Part shown: positions 10,301 to 45,882 of the stretch, one piece after another | How the letters are laid out: every line of letters begins with the position of its first letter | Position numbering within the stretch: the first letter of the stretch is position 1 | From: Archangium gephyra | GTDB taxonomy: Bacteria > Myxococcota > Myxococcia > Myxococcales > Myxococcaceae | Direction of reading: 5' to 3' | NCBI RefSeq assembly: GCF_001027285.1 | Contig: NZ_CP011509.1 | Location: 7,340,501-7,404,500, forward strand | DNA length: 64,000 nt | Notes under the pieces: generated by a model | What the model was told of the DNA's origin: nothing | What the model saw: only the letters and a program-made list of their open reading frames with translations | The model's database searches: none | Made by a program: the position numbers and the translations under genes

Positions 10301-13300
10301 GTGATGGGACGCGAGGCTTTCTCCAACCAGCCCGTCTCCAGCAACAACTGGAGCTGAGAGGGCGTGCAGTCGAAGACGTCCACCTCCTGCCGCTCCAGGT
10401 AGCCGCGCAGCTCCTCACCGTCGAAGCGCACGGGCTCCGGCGTCAGGTCCAGCATATGCCCGCGCAGCACCTGGAAGAGCTGCTTCACCGACGTGTCGAA
10501 AGACACCGAGCCATTCACGCTCACCCGCTGCCCCGGCCCCAGCGGCGCGTATACCGCCCGGTGCAGCGCCTCGATGAGGTTGGCCACCGCGCCCTGGCGC
10601 ACCATCACCGCCTTCGGCCGGCCCGTGCTGCCCGAAGTGTAGATGGCGTACGCCAGGTGCTCCGGCCCCGCGCCTCCGGGCACCGGCGTCTCCGGCTCCG
10701 CGCGCAGCGCCTCCCGCTCCGCGTCCAGCCGCAACAGCACCTGCCCGGGCCCCACGAGCCCCCCGGCCGCCTCGCCCGCCGTCACCACCACCCCGGCCCC
10801 CGAGTCCTCCAACATGTAGCGCAACCGCTCGGGCGGATAGGCCGGATCCAGCGGGACGTACGCGCCGCCGGCCTTCAGGATGCCCCACAGGCCCACCACC
10901 AGCTCCACCGAGCGCTCCACGCACAGGCCCACCCGCACGTCCGGGCCCACGCCCATCCGCCGCAGCCGGTGCGCCACCTGGTTGGCCCGCGCGTCCAGCT
11001 CGCGGAAGGTGAGCCGCGCCGGCCCCATCCCCACCGCCACCGCCTCCGGCGTGCGCGCCACCTGCGCCTCCAGCAGCGCCGTCAGCCCGGAGGATCCCTC
11101 GCGCGCTACCGCCGTGGCGTTCCACTCGCGGAGCACCCGCTGGCGCTCCTCCTCACCCAGCGGGGACAGCTCCTCCACCGGGCGCTCCGCCGACTCCACC
11201 AGCTGCCCCAGCAGGCGCTGGAAATGCTCCAGCAGCCGCTGCGCGTCCGCCCCGTCGATGCGGCTCTCGTCATGGTAGAGGTGCAGCTCCAACCCCTGGT
11301 GGGGATTCGCGATCAGCACCAGCGGGAAGCTGTCGAGCTCGAAGCTGCGCAGATCCCGGACCTCCAGCCCCGTCTCCTTTCCGAGCCCGCCCTCCAGCGC
11401 CTCGTCCACCCGCAGGTTCTCCACCACCACCAGCGACTCGAAGAGCGGCGTCCCGGACGGCACCTCGCTCCAGCGCCGCACCTCCACCAGCGGGCTGTAG
11501 TCGTGCTGACGCATCTCCAGCAGCCAGCCCTGCAGCTCCCGCAGCCACTCGCCCACGGGCTTCCCACGGACAACACGCGCGCGCACCGGCAGCGTGTTGA
11601 TGAACATCCCGATCGTCTCCTCCACCCCCGGCAGCGTCGCCGGACGGCCGGAGACGGTGTTGCCGAACACCACGTCGTCCTCGCCCGCGTGGTGGCGCAG
11701 CAGGAGCGCCCAGACGCCCATGAGGCAGGTGCTCAGGGTGACCTTCTGGCGGCGCGAGAACTCCTGGAGCGCGGCGATCTGCCCGGACGTCAGACGCGCC
11801 TTCCGCTCCCGGCGCACGGGGACTCCGCCCGGCACGGGGCCGCGATCCACGCTCACCTGCGTGGGCGACGTGAAGCCCGCGAGCGACTCACGCCAGAACT
11901 CCCGGGCGGCGTCCAGCTCCTGACCCTGCAACCAGGCGATGAAGTCGCGATACGCGGGCGCCTCGGGCCAGCTCCGCGTTCCACCGAGCGCCAGCGACCC
12001 GTAGCGGGTGAATACCTCGCCCAGCAGCAGGGGCATGGACCAGCCATCCAGCACCAGGTGCGAGTAGCTGAAGACGATCCTCCAGGCCCGCTCGCCGACT
12101 CGCAGCAGGGCGAGCCGCAGCAGGGGGGCCCGCTCCAGCTCGAAGCCCTGACGCCGATCCTCGGCGATCCATGCGGCGAACCGCGCCTCGAACTCCGAGG
12201 ACGGTACCTCGCGCCAGTCCTCCGAGTGGATGGGCAGTTGCGCATGCCTCATCACCACCTGCAGCGGCTCCTCCAGGCCCTCCCAGAGGAAGCCCGTGCG
12301 CAGGCTGGTGTGGCGATCCACCGTCTCCTGCCACGCGCGCGCCACCGCCGTGACGTCCAGCGGGCCCTCCAGCTCCCAGGAGAGCTGGTTGAGGTACATG
12401 TCCGCGCTGGACGCGTGGAGCACGTGGAAGAGCAGCCCCTTCTGCAACGGGGAGAGGGGGTACAGATCCTCGATGTTCCGGCGGCGTGAGGCATCGCCCC
12501 GCGCCACCCGCTCCACCAGCGCATCCAGTTCCTGCTGGCCGAGCTTCACGAGCGGGAAGTCGGACGGAGTGAAATGGTCCCTGCCCTCCGAGGCACGCGC
12601 TCGCGCCACCGGCTCCAGGGACTGGCTGGACGCCGCTCCCGCCACCGCGGCGAGTCGGGCGATCGTCGGCTGGGAGAAGAGCTGCTTCGCGGTGATGTGG
12701 ACTCCCGCCTGCGCCGCCCGGGAGATGATCCGGATGGCGAGGATGGAGTCGCCGCCCAGCTCGAAGAAGTCATCGTGGATGCCCACCCGCTCGTGCCCGA
12801 GCACCTGCTCCCAGGCCTCCGCCAGCACGCGCTCCTCCGGCGTGCGCGGCGGTTCGTGGGTGGTGGGCTTCTCCCTCGCCTGCTCCGGCGCGGGTAGTGC
12901 CTTGCGATCCACCTTGCCACTCGTGGTGCGCGGCAGTGCATTGAGTGGCACGAAGACCGCGGGCACCATGTACTCGGGGATGCGCTGACCCAGGAAGGCG
13001 CGCAGATGGGAGGGATCCAACCCGGGAGCCGTGGCACCCTCACCCCGTCCCTCTCCCGGAGGGCGAGGGGATGTGGGCACGACGTAGGCCACGAGCCACG
13101 GATCTCCTCCGGCACGCTTGCGGAGGACGACCACTGCCTCGGCCACCGAAGGTTCCTCGCCCAGGGCCGCTTCGATCTCCCCCAGCTCGATGCGGAACCC
13201 GCGCAGCTTCACCTGCTCGTCGGCACGCCCGAGGAACTCGAGCTGCCCGTCCGGCAGCCACCGGACGACGTCTCCCGTCCGGTACAGGCGCGCACCGGGA

Positions 13301-40788: not shown

Positions 40789-42116
40789 GCGAGCGCCTCC
40801 AGGTAGCGGCGGGCGAGGGCACGCGCGTTGTCGGCGGAGAACCCCGCCAGGGTGAGGCTCGTCTGGACGCCCGAGGTGCTCGCGTTGGTCGTCGCGGCCC
40901 GGAGCGCCAGGTCATACAGGCCGGGGAACTTCTTGTAGGCGCGCAGGCACAGGGAGGTCCGCGTGGGGACGCCGCCCACTTTCACGAAGTCCACGCGGCA
41001 GCGGAAGTTCGTCACGTCCTCCTTGGTGGCGTCCACGCCGCCCGGATCATTGCTGAAGGTGGCCTCGTAGAGCGCGGAGAAGCGCAGGGCCCCGAGCTGA
41101 TCGCTCGACACGAAGGCATGGTCATAGGCCACCACGCCGGTGCGGTGCTCGCCGCTCAGGTAGATGTCCTCCTCGGAGGAGCACTGGTAGCTGGTGATGG
41201 TGTAGGGGTTCTCCGGCTCGTGGGGGGTGTCGCCCCAGCACTTGAGGAAGGGCAACCAGCGGCCGGGCACGTGGTAGTCGCCGAGCTGCTGCGTCGGGAG
41301 GGGCGCGGCCAGGAGGCGCTCGGTGATGCGCTGCTGGTTGTCCAGGAGCTGCGAGCCCACCACGGCCAGGAGCGCCGAGGGGCTGCTCTCCTTCACCTGG
41401 CGCGCGCGCTCCACCAGCTCGCGGGCATGGGCCACCGGCACGAGGAAGCCGAGCTGGTTGCCCATGGTGGCCACGTTGACGCCCACCACGCGGCCATCCC
41501 CCGTGACGGTGGGGCCGCCGCTCATGCCGGGGTTGATGGCGCCGCTGAAGTGCACCTTGTCGTAGAGCGCGTCCTGCACGAGGCCGTTGTAGGTGCCCTC
41601 GACGATGGTGGTGCCCAGGTCATGCGGGTTGCCCATGGCGTACAGGCGGGTGCCCTGGGGAGGCTCCCTGGCGGCCAGCTCGAACCAGTCCTTCACCGGT
41701 GCGTCCTGCCGGATGACGGCCAGGTCGTGCACCACGTCCACGTCCACCACGCGGACGGCAATGGCCTCGGCGTCCTTGCCCTCGCGCACCAGCTCGGCGG
41801 TGTAGTCGTCCGGGTGGTGAACGATGTCGGAGATGACGTGGTAGTTGGTGAGGGCATGGCCCTCGGCGCTCACGAAGAACGCCGAGCCGATGGACGACCG
41901 GGTGCCACTGCGCCGCTCGATGATGCGCACCTGGGCGACGCGGCCCTTGAGGCGCTCGAAGAGCTCATGGGTGGCGGGGGGCAGCGTGGCCACGGGCAGC
42001 GGAGGCACGACGGCAGGGGTGCCCGCGTCCGGCGGGTCTCCGGGCAAGGCATTCGCGGCCGGGACCGGAGCCTGGGCCAGGGCGGCGAGGAGGAGGATCG
42101 TCAACATGCGGGGCAC
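40776..42116 (-). CDS. Trypsin-like serine protease, exported
   Basis: Predicted 446 residues. The N-terminus MPRMLTILLLAALAQAPVPAA is a signal peptide, followed by a Pro/Ala-rich stretch. The chymotrypsin-fold triad is visible as His93 (TNYHVISD), Asp131 (VHDLAVIR) and Ser199 (NPGMSGGP), as in DegP/HtrA-like and S1C enzymes. No PDZ domain is seen; the C-terminal 220 residues contain several Cys and are not recognised. It is transcribed ahead of the FHA membrane protein with overlapping ends. Confidence 0.87.
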   Translation of the reverse strand: MPRMLTILLLAALAQAPVPAANALPGDPPDAGTPAVVPPLPVATLPPATHELFERLKGRVAQVRIIERRSGTRSSIGSAFFVSAEGHALTNYHVISDIVHHPDDYTAELVREGKDAEAIAVRVVDVDVVHDLAVIRQDAPVKDWFELAAREPPQGTRLYAMGNPHDLGTTIVEGTYNGLVQDALYDKVHFSGAINPGMSGGPTVTGDGRVVGVNVATMGNQLGFLVPVAHARELVERARQVKESSPSALLAVVGSQLLDNQQRITERLLAAPLPTQQLGDYHVPGRWLPFLKCWGDTPHEPENPYTITSYQCSSEEDIYLSGEHRTGVVAYDHAFVSSDQLGALRFSALYEATFSNDPGGVDATKEDVTNFRCRVDFVKVGGVPTRTSLCLRAYKKFPGLYDLALRAATTNASTSGVQTSLTLAGFSADNARALARRYLEALAWTK

Positions 42117-42143
42117 ACACTAGGCCATCCCAACCAATTCCGT

Positions 42144-42290
42144 TCAGGGGGTGGCGGCTCGGGTAGGCAGGTTGCCGCGCCTGCGGATGCGGCGCAGCAG
42201 GTGGACTGTCGCACCATAGAAGGAGTCGCGGTCCGCCGTCAGCATGCGGCTGAAGTAGGTGGCCGTCCGCAAGCCTCTTGAGCGTCCGCT
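42144..42290 (-). pseudogene. Possible C-terminal gene remnant
   Basis: A short minus-strand frame ending at 42144 gives a peptide (TYFSRMLTADRDSF then LLRRIRRR) that looks more protein-like than the surrounding shadow frames. It has no start of its own and its upstream part runs into the 5' end of the defence-type operon. It may be the tail of a gene truncated when that operon was inserted. No family is recognised, and it may be chance. Confidence 0.2.
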
Positions 42291-42300
42291 TCGTACGACG

Positions 42301-42320
42301 CCAGTGTTATATTCGCGGGG
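42301..42320 (+). promoter_or_regulatory. Candidate -10 element and leaderless start
   Basis: TTATATTC at 42307-42314 is an AT-rich island in very GC-rich DNA and resembles a -10 box. Its end is seven bases before ATG 42321, so the transcript would begin at or next to the start codon. No convincing -35 box was found. Confidence 0.35.
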
Positions 42321-42674
42321 ATGATCCACTGGAGCACACGCCAACGAGGCTTGGTCGAAGCTATCCTCCAGCGCCATCCAGCCGAGTCCTCCGAGTGCGC
42401 CAACGCTGCCCAGAGCATCCTTCCAACGGCTCTGGAGGTCGATGACACCGCGCACGCCCGCATCATCGTGGCGGAGAACGCCCTTTACATCCAACCCAAG
42501 GGACCCTCCCGCCGTTGGATGCACCACGTGACGGTGGCCGTGACGGAATACCACGTGGACGTGTTGACGGGACCGGACGGGTTTCCCCAGGAGACCTATC
42601 TGGAGGAGTACTTCCACCACCCCGAGGCCCATACGGTCCGGCCTGTCGAACCCGACGAGTGGGCAACACTATGA
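42321..42674 (+). CDS. Small papain-fold-like protein (possible toxin/effector)
   Basis: Predicted 117 residues, first gene of a three-gene overlapping operon. The pattern SECANAAQ (Cys26), WMHHVTVAV (His68/69) and YHVDVLTGPDG (Asp80) follows the Cys-His-Asp order and spacing of small papain-fold domains found in polymorphic toxins, where the Cys starts a helix and the His lies in a strand next to a D-x-LTG turn. On this basis it could be a protease or deamidase effector. No signal peptide or membrane segment. The stop overlaps the next start as ATGA. The family call is by motif only. Confidence 0.6.
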   Translation: MIHWSTRQRGLVEAILQRHPAESSECANAAQSILPTALEVDDTAHARIIVAENALYIQPKGPSRRWMHHVTVAVTEYHVDVLTGPDGFPQETYLEEYFHHPEAHTVRPVEPDEWATL

Positions 42675-43030
42675 CCTCGCAAGAACGCCTCCTCCGCCAG
42701 CTCGACGAGAAGCTCGACTCCATCCTCGACAATCCGGAGGGATGGGGCGGAATCGACGCGCTGGAGCCGCTGGTACTCCTGCTGTTGCTCCTCCGGGCGG
42801 CTCTGGCGACGCCTCGGATGACCCACGCCGAAGTCTTGAAGCAGTACAGGGTCTTTCTCGCCACACGCCTCAAGCCGGGAGTCGGGGACATTCGCGAGCG
42901 CCTGGGAGACGCGTTGTCGCTGGAGACCATGGTCGAGCTCCTCCGCGAGCACGTCTCCAGCGTCCGCGCGCATCAGCGTCCCTCGGGATTCCCGAGGTAC
43001 ATGGCCGTCGAGTCCGAGGCACGCCACTGA
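42671..43030 (+). CDS. Small helical protein of unknown function
   Basis: Predicted 119 residues, starting at ATG 42671 inside the previous stop. Mostly predicted helix, with a Leu-rich run (PLVLLLLLLRAAL) near residue 40 that is amphipathic-to-hydrophobic, and many charged residues elsewhere. I do not recognise a family. Its overlap with both neighbours (ATGA before, TGATG after) suggests a fixed stoichiometry with them, perhaps as an adaptor or an inhibitor of the Cys-His protein. Confidence 0.6.
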   Translation: MTSQERLLRQLDEKLDSILDNPEGWGGIDALEPLVLLLLLLRAALATPRMTHAEVLKQYRVFLATRLKPGVGDIRERLGDALSLETMVELLREHVSSVRAHQRPSGFPRYMAVESEARH

Positions 43031-44811
43031 TGGGCGAAATCATCTCGTTCTACTCGTACAAGGGAGGCGTGGGGCGTTCGATGGCGCTCGCCAACGTGGC
43101 CACGCTGCTCGCGCATCGGGGCCGACGCGTCTTGGTCGTCGACTTCGACCTTGAGGCACCTGGGCTTCATCGGTACTTCCTGTCCTCGTTTCCCCGACCC
43201 CGCCGGATGCGTCAGCAATCTGGCTCGGGGCAGCTCGGGACCATCGACTTCTTCTGCGAGCTCTCGGACCTCCTCTCAACTCGGAAGGACTCCCCCCAGA
43301 AAGCCATTGCCTCCCTCCTGGACTCCGGCAGGTTCGGATACTCCATCCCTGTCAGGTCACCCACCCGATCCCGAGCCGCCAGTCTGGACTTCTGGAGCGC
43401 AGGTCTCTTCGACAAGGACTACGCCAGCCGCGTACACGACTATCCCTGGGACCGGCTCTATGAGGAATCCCGGGAGGTCTTCACGCAACTCGCGGAGGAG
43501 TGGAAGGCGCGCTACGACTACGTCCTCCTCGATTCACGCACGGGCATCTCGGATCTCGGGAGTGTCTCCACCGTCATCCTGGCGGACAAGCTGGTCCTGG
43601 CCTTCACGCTCAACGAGCAGTCCCTGCACGGAGTGACAGAGCTCGGGCGACAGGCGGTGCAGTTGAAGCGAAGCGTCGGTGCTTCCAGGCCCCTCGCCCT
43701 GTTTCCGCTCCTCAGCCGGGTCGACGAGGGTGAAGAGCACTTGAATCGCAGGTGGAGCAAGGAGGCCGCCCGACGCTTCGCCTCGCTGTTCGAAGCCGCT
43801 TACGGGCGGGGCACGCTCGACTTCTCGACCTACTTCGATGCGGTCCGAATCCCATATCGGGGGTACTACGCCTACGGCGAGAAGATTGCCGTCGAGGAGG
43901 AAAAGCCGGCGACGCTGGGCTCCCTCGCGGAGGGATATGAGCGGTTTCTCGACTGCGTCCTCGGAGAGCGGCTGGAGGGGTGGCAGGAGCGTATCCGGAG
44001 CACGGTGAAGCCCATCCGGATGGATGGCGGTCTGCTGGTGAACTTCGAGAAGCCGTCCGCCCTCTCCTTCGAGCTGGACTTGGGGCACGTGGTGAAGGTT
44101 CCCGAGCAGCTCCCGGCGCACGGGACCACCGAGCTGCGAGACATCCCCATCAACAGGATGGCCTGGGAGCGGGCCCTGCGCGAGATGGAGCAGGGGGTAG
44201 AGCGTGCGACGCAGACCATCCAGGGGACGCTGCACGTCTTCGCGACGATGCCCTATCCCGCGGCCGTGTTCCTCGGAAGATGCCTGGACGACCTCGCCCG
44301 GACCCGACCCATCCAGCTTCACCAACTCGACCCGCGCACCCACACCTGGGTTCCGTTCTCGGGAGTGGGTGTGTCCGCCCCTGAGGCCACCGGGCCCTAC
44401 TTCCATCCGCTGGAGCGAGTGATCATGTACTCGGGACCGGCGGTGGGGCTGGCCATCGAGGGCATGACCCCGATTTCCAGGGCGTCACTCTCCCAGCTTG
44501 GCCTCCACGTCAATGCGAGCATCTACCACCTCCAGCCAAGACAGCGACGCCCCCTGCCACCTCGCGCCGGAGCAGCGGTCGTCGAGGAGCTCAGGGCCGC
44601 GCTCCTGCACCTGCGGGAACAACACCCCTCCGCGCCGCTCCACATCGTGACGAGCGCACCGGTGGCGCTCCTCATCGAGCTGGGGCGCCTGTTACCTCCC
44701 TCGGTGTACAAGAGCGTCACCGTCCACCAGTTCGAGCCCGGGTCCGGCAGCTACGTTCCCGTGCTCGATGTCATCACGCGTGAGGTGGTCGTCGCCCAGA
44801 AGCCGGCTTGA
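43030..44811 (+). CDS. KGGVGR-type P-loop ATPase fused to a SAVED domain
   Basis: Predicted 593 residues. Residues 1-310 are a MinD/ParA-like ATPase: SYKGGVGRSMALANVA with the deviant Walker A KGGVGR at 11-16 (Arg instead of Lys), VLVVDFDLEAPG, and a Walker B-like YVLLDSRTG near 163. KGGVGR ATPases are known from predicted bacterial conflict systems. Residues about 340-590 match the SAVED sensor fold, with both halves visible: LHVFATMPYPAAVFLGR and W near 401-440, then LHIVTSAPVALLIELGR and YVPVLDV near 537-580. SAVED domains in CBASS bind cyclic oligonucleotides. There is no CD-NTase in the window, so the ligand source is unknown. ATG 43030 shares one base with the previous stop. Confidence 0.85.
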   Translation: MGEIISFYSYKGGVGRSMALANVATLLAHRGRRVLVVDFDLEAPGLHRYFLSSFPRPRRMRQQSGSGQLGTIDFFCELSDLLSTRKDSPQKAIASLLDSGRFGYSIPVRSPTRSRAASLDFWSAGLFDKDYASRVHDYPWDRLYEESREVFTQLAEEWKARYDYVLLDSRTGISDLGSVSTVILADKLVLAFTLNEQSLHGVTELGRQAVQLKRSVGASRPLALFPLLSRVDEGEEHLNRRWSKEAARRFASLFEAAYGRGTLDFSTYFDAVRIPYRGYYAYGEKIAVEEEKPATLGSLAEGYERFLDCVLGERLEGWQERIRSTVKPIRMDGGLLVNFEKPSALSFELDLGHVVKVPEQLPAHGTTELRDIPINRMAWERALREMEQGVERATQTIQGTLHVFATMPYPAAVFLGRCLDDLARTRPIQLHQLDPRTHTWVPFSGVGVSAPEATGPYFHPLERVIMYSGPAVGLAIEGMTPISRASLSQLGLHVNASIYHLQPRQRRPLPPRAGAAVVEELRAALLHLREQHPSAPLHIVTSAPVALLIELGRLLPPSVYKSVTVHQFEPGSGSYVPVLDVITREVVVAQKPA

Positions 44812-44842
44812 CACTCCCGCGGCCCGGCCCCTAGCTTGAGAA

Positions 44843-45184
44843 CGCGGTCCGAAGGCCAGCTTGTTCTTTTCCAGGCCCGTTGCTGCGTGAGCAGCAAACG
44901 AGAATCGGGTGAATTGCCGGAACCCCCGGAGACGGGCAACCGGCAGCCAAGGCCGACACGGCGGGGCACTGCTGTCCGTGTCCTAAGGGGTCGGCAAGGT
45001 TCAGAGACTAGGGTCCGAGCGAAAGCGGTAATGACCCCACGAGCGCCCGACGTCTTCCCGGCAGTGAGGAAGACGATGAGATAGTCCGGTCTACCGAGAT
45101 GATCGGCGGTCCCAAACGGTAGAAGCCGGGGATAAAGAGCCCCGGCGATAACAGCGCTTCGGCTACGAGGGCCTTCGGACCGCG
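44843..45184 (+). terminator. Intrinsic terminator of the SAVED operon, split by an intron
   Basis: Exon pieces 44843-44848 (CGCGGT) and 45172-45184 join after splicing into CGCGGTCC-TTC-GGACCGCG, a perfect 8-base-pair stem with a three-base loop, followed by a pyrimidine-rich tail (CCCTTCCCTTTCC). The stem lies 31 bases after the stop of the ATPase-SAVED gene. In the DNA this appears as a 15-base inverted repeat, 44843-44857 and 45170-45184. The terminator role is inferred. Confidence 0.5.
44849..45171 (+). ncRNA. Group I self-splicing intron, ORF-less
   Basis: The conserved core elements P, Q, R and S are all present in order, and the paired segments can be built. P1 holds a U-G pair (U44848 with G44855). 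P2 is 44879-44886 with 44891-44899. P3 is 44905-44910 with 45013-45018, P4 is 44915-44920 with 44940-44945, and P6 is 44952-44957 with 44990-44995. P7 is GACTA 45006-45010 with TAGTC 45082-45086, P8 is 45051-45058 with 45068-45075, and P9 is 45090-45096 with 45117-45123, followed by a strong hairpin at 45125-45146. The predicted 3' end is G45171, and CTTCGG just after it pairs with the guide (P10). No homing endonuclease gene. Splice ends are inferred; the core is directly visible. Confidence 0.9.
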
Positions 45185-45396
45185 CCCTTCCCTTTCCGTC
45201 TTGCGCATTGCCGTTTGCCGTGGAGAGCCTCAGTCAAGACCCTTCCGCGGAATGCGCGCCTCCACCGGGCCCGCGGCCCCTGGAGCGAGCGGGCAAACGG
45301 GGCTTGGACTCCGGGTGAACATCCATCCTACATTCAGAGCAAGCCCCAGAGTCCTCGGGTGACTTCCCCACCCCGCACGGTAACCTTGCCCCCGAG
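45185..45396 (+). other. Intergenic stretch without recognised gene
   Basis: Apart from the pyrimidine-rich terminator tail at its start and a weak GCCCGC/GCGGGC inverted repeat near 45270-45295, I see no gene or clear promoter here. It should hold the promoter of the TPR gene. Confidence 0.4.
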
Positions 45397-45882
45397 ATGA
45401 AGCCCGAAGCCCGCGCCGAAATGGTCGCCCATGCCGAACGCGCCCTGCGCCGCGGAGAGCTGAACGAGGCCCTGGGCCTCTACGAATCGCTCTGCCGGGC
45501 CTTCCCCGAGGACGAAGCGCTCGGCCTCAAGCTGGCCAACCTGCGCGAGATGCTCCAGCCCCAGGAGCTGCAGACGCTCCAGGCCCTCCGGGCCAGCGCC
45601 GTCCCCGAGGCCATCCCCCAGGGCCCCTCCACCCCCGTCACCGAGGGCGAGCGCCTCTTCTTCCTCGGGGACTATGTAGGTGCCGCGGCCGCCTACCGCC
45701 GGGCCCTCCAGGAGAATCCGGAGAACGAGCTGTTCCGCGAGCGGCTGGTGGAGCTGTACCGGCTGGCCCGCTCCCTCCCGGTGAGCTCGCCCACGGATCG
45801 CCAACTGCCCCGCCAGCCCGAGCCGCTGCTGCACGCCCTGTTGGACCGGCTCGCCGCGCGCCGCCGCATCAAGCGCGATTGA
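45397..45882 (+). CDS. Small TPR-repeat protein
   Basis: Predicted 161 residues with two tetratricopeptide-type helix pairs: residues 9-45 (ALRRGELNEALGLYESLCRAFPED) and about 80-115 (RLFFLGDYVGAAAAYRRALQENPEN). Such repeats mediate protein contacts. No signal peptide. It lies 124 bases before a Ser/Thr kinase gene on the same strand and may be a partner in that pathway. There is no good ribosome site before ATG 45397 (CCCCGAG). Confidence 0.72.
   Translation: MKPEARAEMVAHAERALRRGELNEALGLYESLCRAFPEDEALGLKLANLREMLQPQELQTLQALRASAVPEAIPQGPSTPVTEGERLFFLGDYVGAAAAYRRALQENPENELFRERLVELYRLARSLPVSSPTDRQLPRQPEPLLHALLDRLAARRRIKRD

Follow-up and report, generated by a model that had tools for sequence, protein, structure and literature searches.

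We consider it probable that a mobile three-gene module of Archangium gephyra, which ends in an ATPase-SAVED gene, has in its 3' untranslated region a hairpin whose tip is occupied by an ORF-less, phage-related group I intron, and that this intron self-splices from the module's mRNA. For an intron of this class, a 3' hairpin past a probable anti-phage gene is an unusual location. The stretch of DNA analysed, referred to below as the window, comprised 64,000 nucleotides of contig NZ_CP011509.1, and its features are collected in Table 1.

A cmscan search against Rfam returned an Intron_gpI (RF00028) match at 44856-45109 on the forward strand, with 71.4 bits and an E-value of 3.8e-16. The score clears the curated cut-off of the family (gathering score, 50), and the match was the single one in the entire 12.49 Mb genome. 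An earlier note, made from the letters of the DNA, had proposed a group I intron here and had named an Infernal search with this model as a check; the significant match and the covariation described below bear the proposal out. The 323-nt intron contained no credible ORF. Neither a homing endonuclease gene nor IS605-type transposase genes were found in it, just a frame of 82 aa that starts with TTG and has no Pfam match, and an Rfam scan detected no aptamer in the intron.

The core helices P3, P4, P5, P6a, P7, P7.1 and P8 were drawn on the window sequence and scored on an alignment of 34 sequences, namely the window intron, its counterpart in G006 (a genome of the same genus) and 32 phage introns. 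In the 34 sequences, 91.5% of the cells of the core helices were paired, compared with 69.7% in shuffles; the alignment was not fitted to the drawn structure, which was however taken from one member and is favoured by this on the cells paired. Two-sided changes were seen in 26 of the 40 core pairs, and the core covariation score was 0.538, against 0.148 for shuffled sequences and at most 0.130 with slid partners. Because the pairing and covariation scores exceeded those of the shuffles and the slid partners, we conclude that the window core is a true group I fold. P7.1 alone could be made out of the extra pairings of subgroup IA, P7.1 and P7.2, which lie between P7 and P3.

Table 1. Features of the module, the intron and the exon hairpin, in window positions
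Feature	Position	Strand	Basis or remarks
Inserted module (genes, hairpin, intron)	42126..45312		comparison with the flanks in relatives
First small gene	42321..42674	+	117 aa; no Pfam match; homologous reading frame in G006
Second small gene	42671..43030	+	about 119 aa; no Pfam or PADLOC match
ATPase (KGGVGR type)-SAVED fusion	43030..44811	+	last gene of the module
5' exon arm CGCGGU	44843..44848	+	kept as GCGGU in G006; spacer before it unrelated
P1 GGUC-CGAA-GGCC	44846..44857	+	U44848-G44855 wobble at the 5' splice site; fold
Group I intron	44849..45171	+	323 nt; RF00028 match; boundaries from P1, P10, terminal G and phage templates
P2 hairpin GUUGCUGC-GUGA-GCAGCAAAC	44879..44899	+	predicted fold; same place as P2 of the L186 phage intron
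P3	44905-44911 / 45044-45050	+	100% of cells paired; two-sided changes in 5 of 7 pairs
P4	44915-44920 / 44940-44945	+	34-sequence pairing count
P5	44925-44928 / 44933-44936	+	34-sequence pairing count
P6a	44952-44957 / 44990-44995	+	92.6% paired; two-sided changes in 6 of 6 pairs
P7, guanosine site	45006-45010 / 45082-45086	+	invariant in 34 sequences
P7.1	45011-45015 / 45033-45037	+	covaries in 34 sequences
P8	45052-45058 / 45068-45074	+	covaries in 34 sequences
3' exon arm CCUUCGGACCGCG	45172..45184	+	identical in G006; 45173-45178 also in P10

Joining of the two exons (CGCGGU|CCUUCGGACCGCG) gave a perfect 8-bp stem with a UUC loop, CGCGGUCC-UUC-GGACCGCG, which was predicted to be stable (-14.0 kcal/mol). 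The hairpin begins at 44843, 31 bases past the ATPase-SAVED stop codon (44809-44811); the earlier note had read both the stem and this distance correctly. In the unspliced form, the palindrome around the intron was a perfect 15 bp (44843-44857 / 45170-45184), whereas 1470 random places in the window, scored for arms spaced alike, gave none longer than 11 bp. The longest perfect inverted repeat measured 15 bp in the window and 13 bp in G006, compared with at most 12 bp in the phage and bacterial introns surveyed: the maximum was 12 bp both for the flanks of 124 phage introns, where 6-9 bp was usual, and for about 100 scorable bacterial introns. No palindrome comparable to that of the window was found around the roughly 120 phage or 100 bacterial introns of the survey. 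The bacterial introns came from four broad genome samples, centred on an alphaproteobacterium, an actinomycete, a Bacteroidetes MAG and an Anaerolineales MAG, from which 23 loci that were cut by contig ends or of odd length had been left out. The bacterial loci with longer arms were tRNA genes in all four cases read. ARAGORN classifies intron hosts poorly, since it named one partial tRNA across 29 bacterial intron loci. Two other views of the hairpin were rejected: as a repeated genomic palindrome, because the joined 17-mer was absent from all six genomes of the genus, and as a part of the host site, because it was missing at the nearly empty sites of two relatives (G002 and G003).

The earlier note had called this hairpin a terminator. 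The hairpin stands, but its status as a terminator is only partly supported: an intrinsic terminator is a GC-rich hairpin directly followed by a T-run, the tail after the window hairpin (CCCTTCCCTTTCC) contained no T-run or U-tract, and a terminator scan of 42000-45600 found no intrinsic terminator. The tail in G006 (GTTTCGCTTCTCC) was just slightly better as a U-tract. The present hairpin would be a weak terminator at best. The suggestion that splicing remakes a terminator is unlikely to hold; both arms and the 3' splice site would already be transcribed before splicing, so that a remade terminator could not halt the polymerase that made the transcript. A competition between the 15-bp hairpin and P1 before splicing seems more likely. 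In the unspliced RNA, the exon arms and the P10 strands could form one 15-bp helix that excludes P1. Because this helix shares strands with P1 and P10, two exclusive folds are possible, and the RNA would adopt either the closed hairpin or the splicing-competent fold. The minimum-energy fold obtained without constraints included the 15-bp helix (-167.4 kcal/mol for the stretch folded); enforcing P1 gave -154.5 kcal/mol, a cost of about 13 kcal/mol that refers to secondary structure alone and excludes the tertiary contacts favouring P1 docking. The balance between the two folds could affect the mRNA end.

The three genes of the module overlap by ATGA at both junctions, the stop of the first small gene with the start of the second and the stop of the second with the start of the ATPase-SAVED gene. 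The product of the last gene matched Pfam SAVED (E 5.7e-18) and AAA_31 (3e-13), in agreement with the earlier placement of the intron directly past an ATPase-SAVED gene. It also matched the PADLOC candidate defence family PDC-M28B (3.1e-26), the best stretch being the ATPase part; the gene is a probable anti-phage gene. Either or both of the small upstream genes (42321-43030), which belong to no Pfam family, may be the true partner of ATPase-SAVED.

A second copy of this arrangement was found in G006. Among 195 Myxococcota genomes, RF00028 matches occurred in three (the window genome, G006 and G118), and the ATPase-SAVED gene (E < 1e-30) occurred in the window genome and G006 alone. The G006 intron also lies directly past the ATPase-SAVED gene and inside the same hairpin; the association of intron, gene and hairpin is known from these two copies in one genus. 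The intron of G118 lies in a 23S rRNA gene (L003 1501-1755), between the exons CCGTAACTATA and CGGTCCTAAGGTAGCG. The ATPase-SAVED proteins of the window and G006 were 66% identical, and homology between the two loci extended from about 42396 to 45184, where it stopped at the end of the hairpin. The spacer from the stop codon to the hairpin and the DNA past the hairpin were unrelated, while GCGGU and CCUUCGGACCGCG were kept, and non-coding conservation beyond the gene was limited to the intron and the hairpin arms. Between the two copies, the intron differed at 14.8% of aligned positions, compared with 47.4% of third codon positions and 58.6% of fourfold sites, and several of the intron changes were compensatory (in P6a, P7.1 and P8). 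This low divergence indicates that the intron is under strong purifying selection, which fits selection for the host or just for the intron.

A long, distant ATPase-SAVED homologue was found in a deltaproteobacterial MAG (L009), with a canonical terminator and no intron; the homologue in L008 ends at the contig edge. As the L009 case shows, the ATPase-SAVED gene family does not require the intron, and the view of it as a constant partner of the family was rejected. The intrinsic terminator at L009 7740-7795 has the tip GCC-TTC-GGC, which resembles the tip of the window exon hairpin; a UUC-tipped 3' hairpin may therefore be the ancestral state.

Comparison with the empty site in relatives, which the earlier note had recommended, yielded near-empty sites: the two flanks of the module were 147 bp apart in G002 and 192 bp apart in G003, and neither site contained the hairpin or the intron. 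The same site was filled by other DNA of 0.9-1.65 kb in G004, G005 and G006. Since the G006 module is located at 10.37 Mb, elsewhere than the site corresponding to that of the window module (7.15 Mb), the two species carry the module at different places, in each case complete with hairpin and intron. The module thus appears to move with its intron. A single insertion before the two module copies diverged would be the simplest history, with the intron moving with the module since then. The intergenic site occupied by 42126-45312 is a variable hotspot and perhaps rich in defence genes.

Relatives of the intron were common in phages. A scan of viral contigs with a short core pattern gave at least 120 matching stretches, and related sequence was present in named phages, including Pectobacterium phage phiTE. 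Five phage introns from IMG/VR (L153, L159, L181, L186 and L193) and the phiTE region H42 contained the core motifs GCAGCCAAG, AAGGTTCAGAGACTA and ATAGTCC as in the window; like the window intron, they had P7.1, P8 and P9 hairpins, a U at the 5' site and a G at the 3' end. The four phage introns whose exons could be joined were 246-274 nt long and had no ORF, as is the case for the window intron. Unlike the window intron, the phage introns examined interrupt structural genes (coding genes such as that of the capsid) and have no comparable exon palindrome. Searches of plasmid and phage collections gave no close or near-identical copy of the intron, and the exact end of the window intron was not found in viral contigs. 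A phage origin of the intron is likely. Tandem group I introns separated by a short exon were observed in one phage capsid-like gene (L193 9560-10200, and L344 on the reverse strand near 11829), and both introns have GTCAACTAA close to their start. The viral contigs L106, L146, L207 and L092 likewise contain two or more related group I introns, at distances of a few hundred bases.

Group I introns splice by two guanosine-dependent steps, and the window intron most likely self-splices from the mRNA tail in this usual manner. The 5' site would be set by P1 (GGU/GCC) and the 3' site by P10 (CCGAAG/CUUCGG), and the spliced mRNA would end in a short, stable hairpin. The usual explanation of bacterial group I introns is that they are selfish elements, which survive because they are spliced out of the genes that they interrupt. 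The present intron has been kept at a place where no coding or structural RNA should depend on its splicing; it is better conserved than silent sites in the adjacent gene and appears to travel with a probable anti-phage module. It thus offers a well-defined case in which to test whether such an intron has become a useful part of a bacterial mRNA.

We see an even chance that the intron is a passive mobile parasite, for which the 3' hairpin is a tolerated landing site and whose conservation just keeps splicing intact, a reading compatible with its identity as an intron. The abundance of relatives in phages, the lack of an ORF, the position outside coding sequence and the intron-free homologous gene of L009 all agree with it, as does the current assumption that such introns are benign selfish elements (PMC3984707). 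However, splicing failure outside a coding gene should be cheap, and even so the conservation of the intron exceeds that of third codon positions threefold. In addition, no further copy exists in the window genome or G006, and conversion from a second intron copy is therefore unlikely. It is possible, though we doubt it, that the intron is a regulatory element of the module, so that whether or not it splices determines where the ATPase-SAVED mRNA ends, how stable it is or how much read-through occurs. The strong purifying selection, the retention with the gene and the overlap of the hairpin with P1 and P10, which gives two exclusive folds, point in this direction, but there is no U-tract past the hairpin and no conserved downstream gene at both loci that could be regulated. 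It is improbable that a phage-type intron was adopted as a 3'-end switch of an anti-phage module, alternating between the closed 15-bp hairpin and the ribozyme, so that infection conditions (GTP level, transcription speed or phage factors) would alter splicing and, through splicing, the lifetime or the length of the defence mRNA.

The model of a self-splicing intron at the hairpin tip places the splice sites at U44848, the last exon base, which pairs with G44855, and at G45171, the end of the intron; both bases are conserved in G006. P1 uses just three exon bases in the window (GGU), and its last pair changes from G-C in the window to G-U in G006. In both species, a 6-bp P10 can form between CCGAAG (44849-44854) and CUUCGG of the 3' exon (45173-45178). 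In the phage relatives L159, L181, L153 and L186, joining the exons at the U of the 5' site and after the G of the intron end gave an open frame across the junction. The order read from the L186 sequence was P1, a linker, the P2 hairpin, TGACAA and P3, and the window intron displayed the same P1-linker-P2-P3 order. Because this P1/P2/P10 layout matches L186 and the phage splice rules, 44849-45171 are the best supported boundaries by sequence comparison. The G006 copy supports them independently, and the U-G pair in P1 and the terminal G proposed at the outset are supported by P10, the phage templates and this copy. An alternative 3' site after G45155 (GCG|CUUCGGC) is possible in the window but was rejected, as it is not conserved in G006.

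Rfam's alignment puts the first helix further in, at 44859-44862 / 44873-44876, where a U-G pair is also conserved in G006; with the 5' site after U44861, the whole 15-bp palindrome would be exonic and the intron would lie in its loop. We rejected this P1, as the predicted 3' exon start had no P10 partner in either species and L186, with its in-frame exon joining, has the helix order of the 44849-45171 model; boundaries of this kind are decidedly unlikely. A fossil that no longer splices, or a structural match by chance, is a very improbable explanation, for although splicing is here predicted from sequence, the E-value of the Rfam match, the covariation in 34 sequences and the compensatory changes in P6a, P7.1 and P8 between the window and G006 copies all speak against it.

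The window intron is a member of a known ribozyme class in a new, conserved setting. Searches of the open-access literature brought up no group I intron that lies within a terminator or a 3' hairpin, and none from myxobacteria. The sites described for group I introns in bacteria are tRNA genes, rRNA genes and some protein genes, besides IStrons and one 5' UTR ribozyme under the control of c-di-GMP; such introns are currently assumed to be benign selfish elements (PMC3984707). The introns of bacterial tRNA and rRNA genes, such as the 23S intron of G118 (L003), are likewise chromosomal group I ribozymes in structured RNA; the window exon, in contrast, is an mRNA tail hairpin, a case not seen among the roughly 100 bacterial introns surveyed. 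IStrons, which combine a group I intron with IS605 genes (PMC3984707), can also have their group I core outside the usual genes, but they carry transposase genes and the 323-nt window element does not. The c-di-GMP-dependent allosteric group I ribozyme of Clostridioides difficile (PMC3984707) lies, as the window intron does, in an mRNA untranslated region; it occupies the 5' UTR and has a c-di-GMP aptamer, whereas the window intron is on the 3' side and has no aptamer by Rfam. Group IIC introns, which insert after the stem-loops of intrinsic terminators according to the passage of PMC7161350 that cites Robart et al. (2007), resemble the window intron in being tied to the 3' stem-loop of a bacterial gene. 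They represent another ribozyme class that has a reverse transcriptase and inserts after the stem-loop; the window intron lies inside the stem-loop and encodes no protein. The window intron thus provides a group I parallel to the use of 3' stem-loops by group IIC introns.
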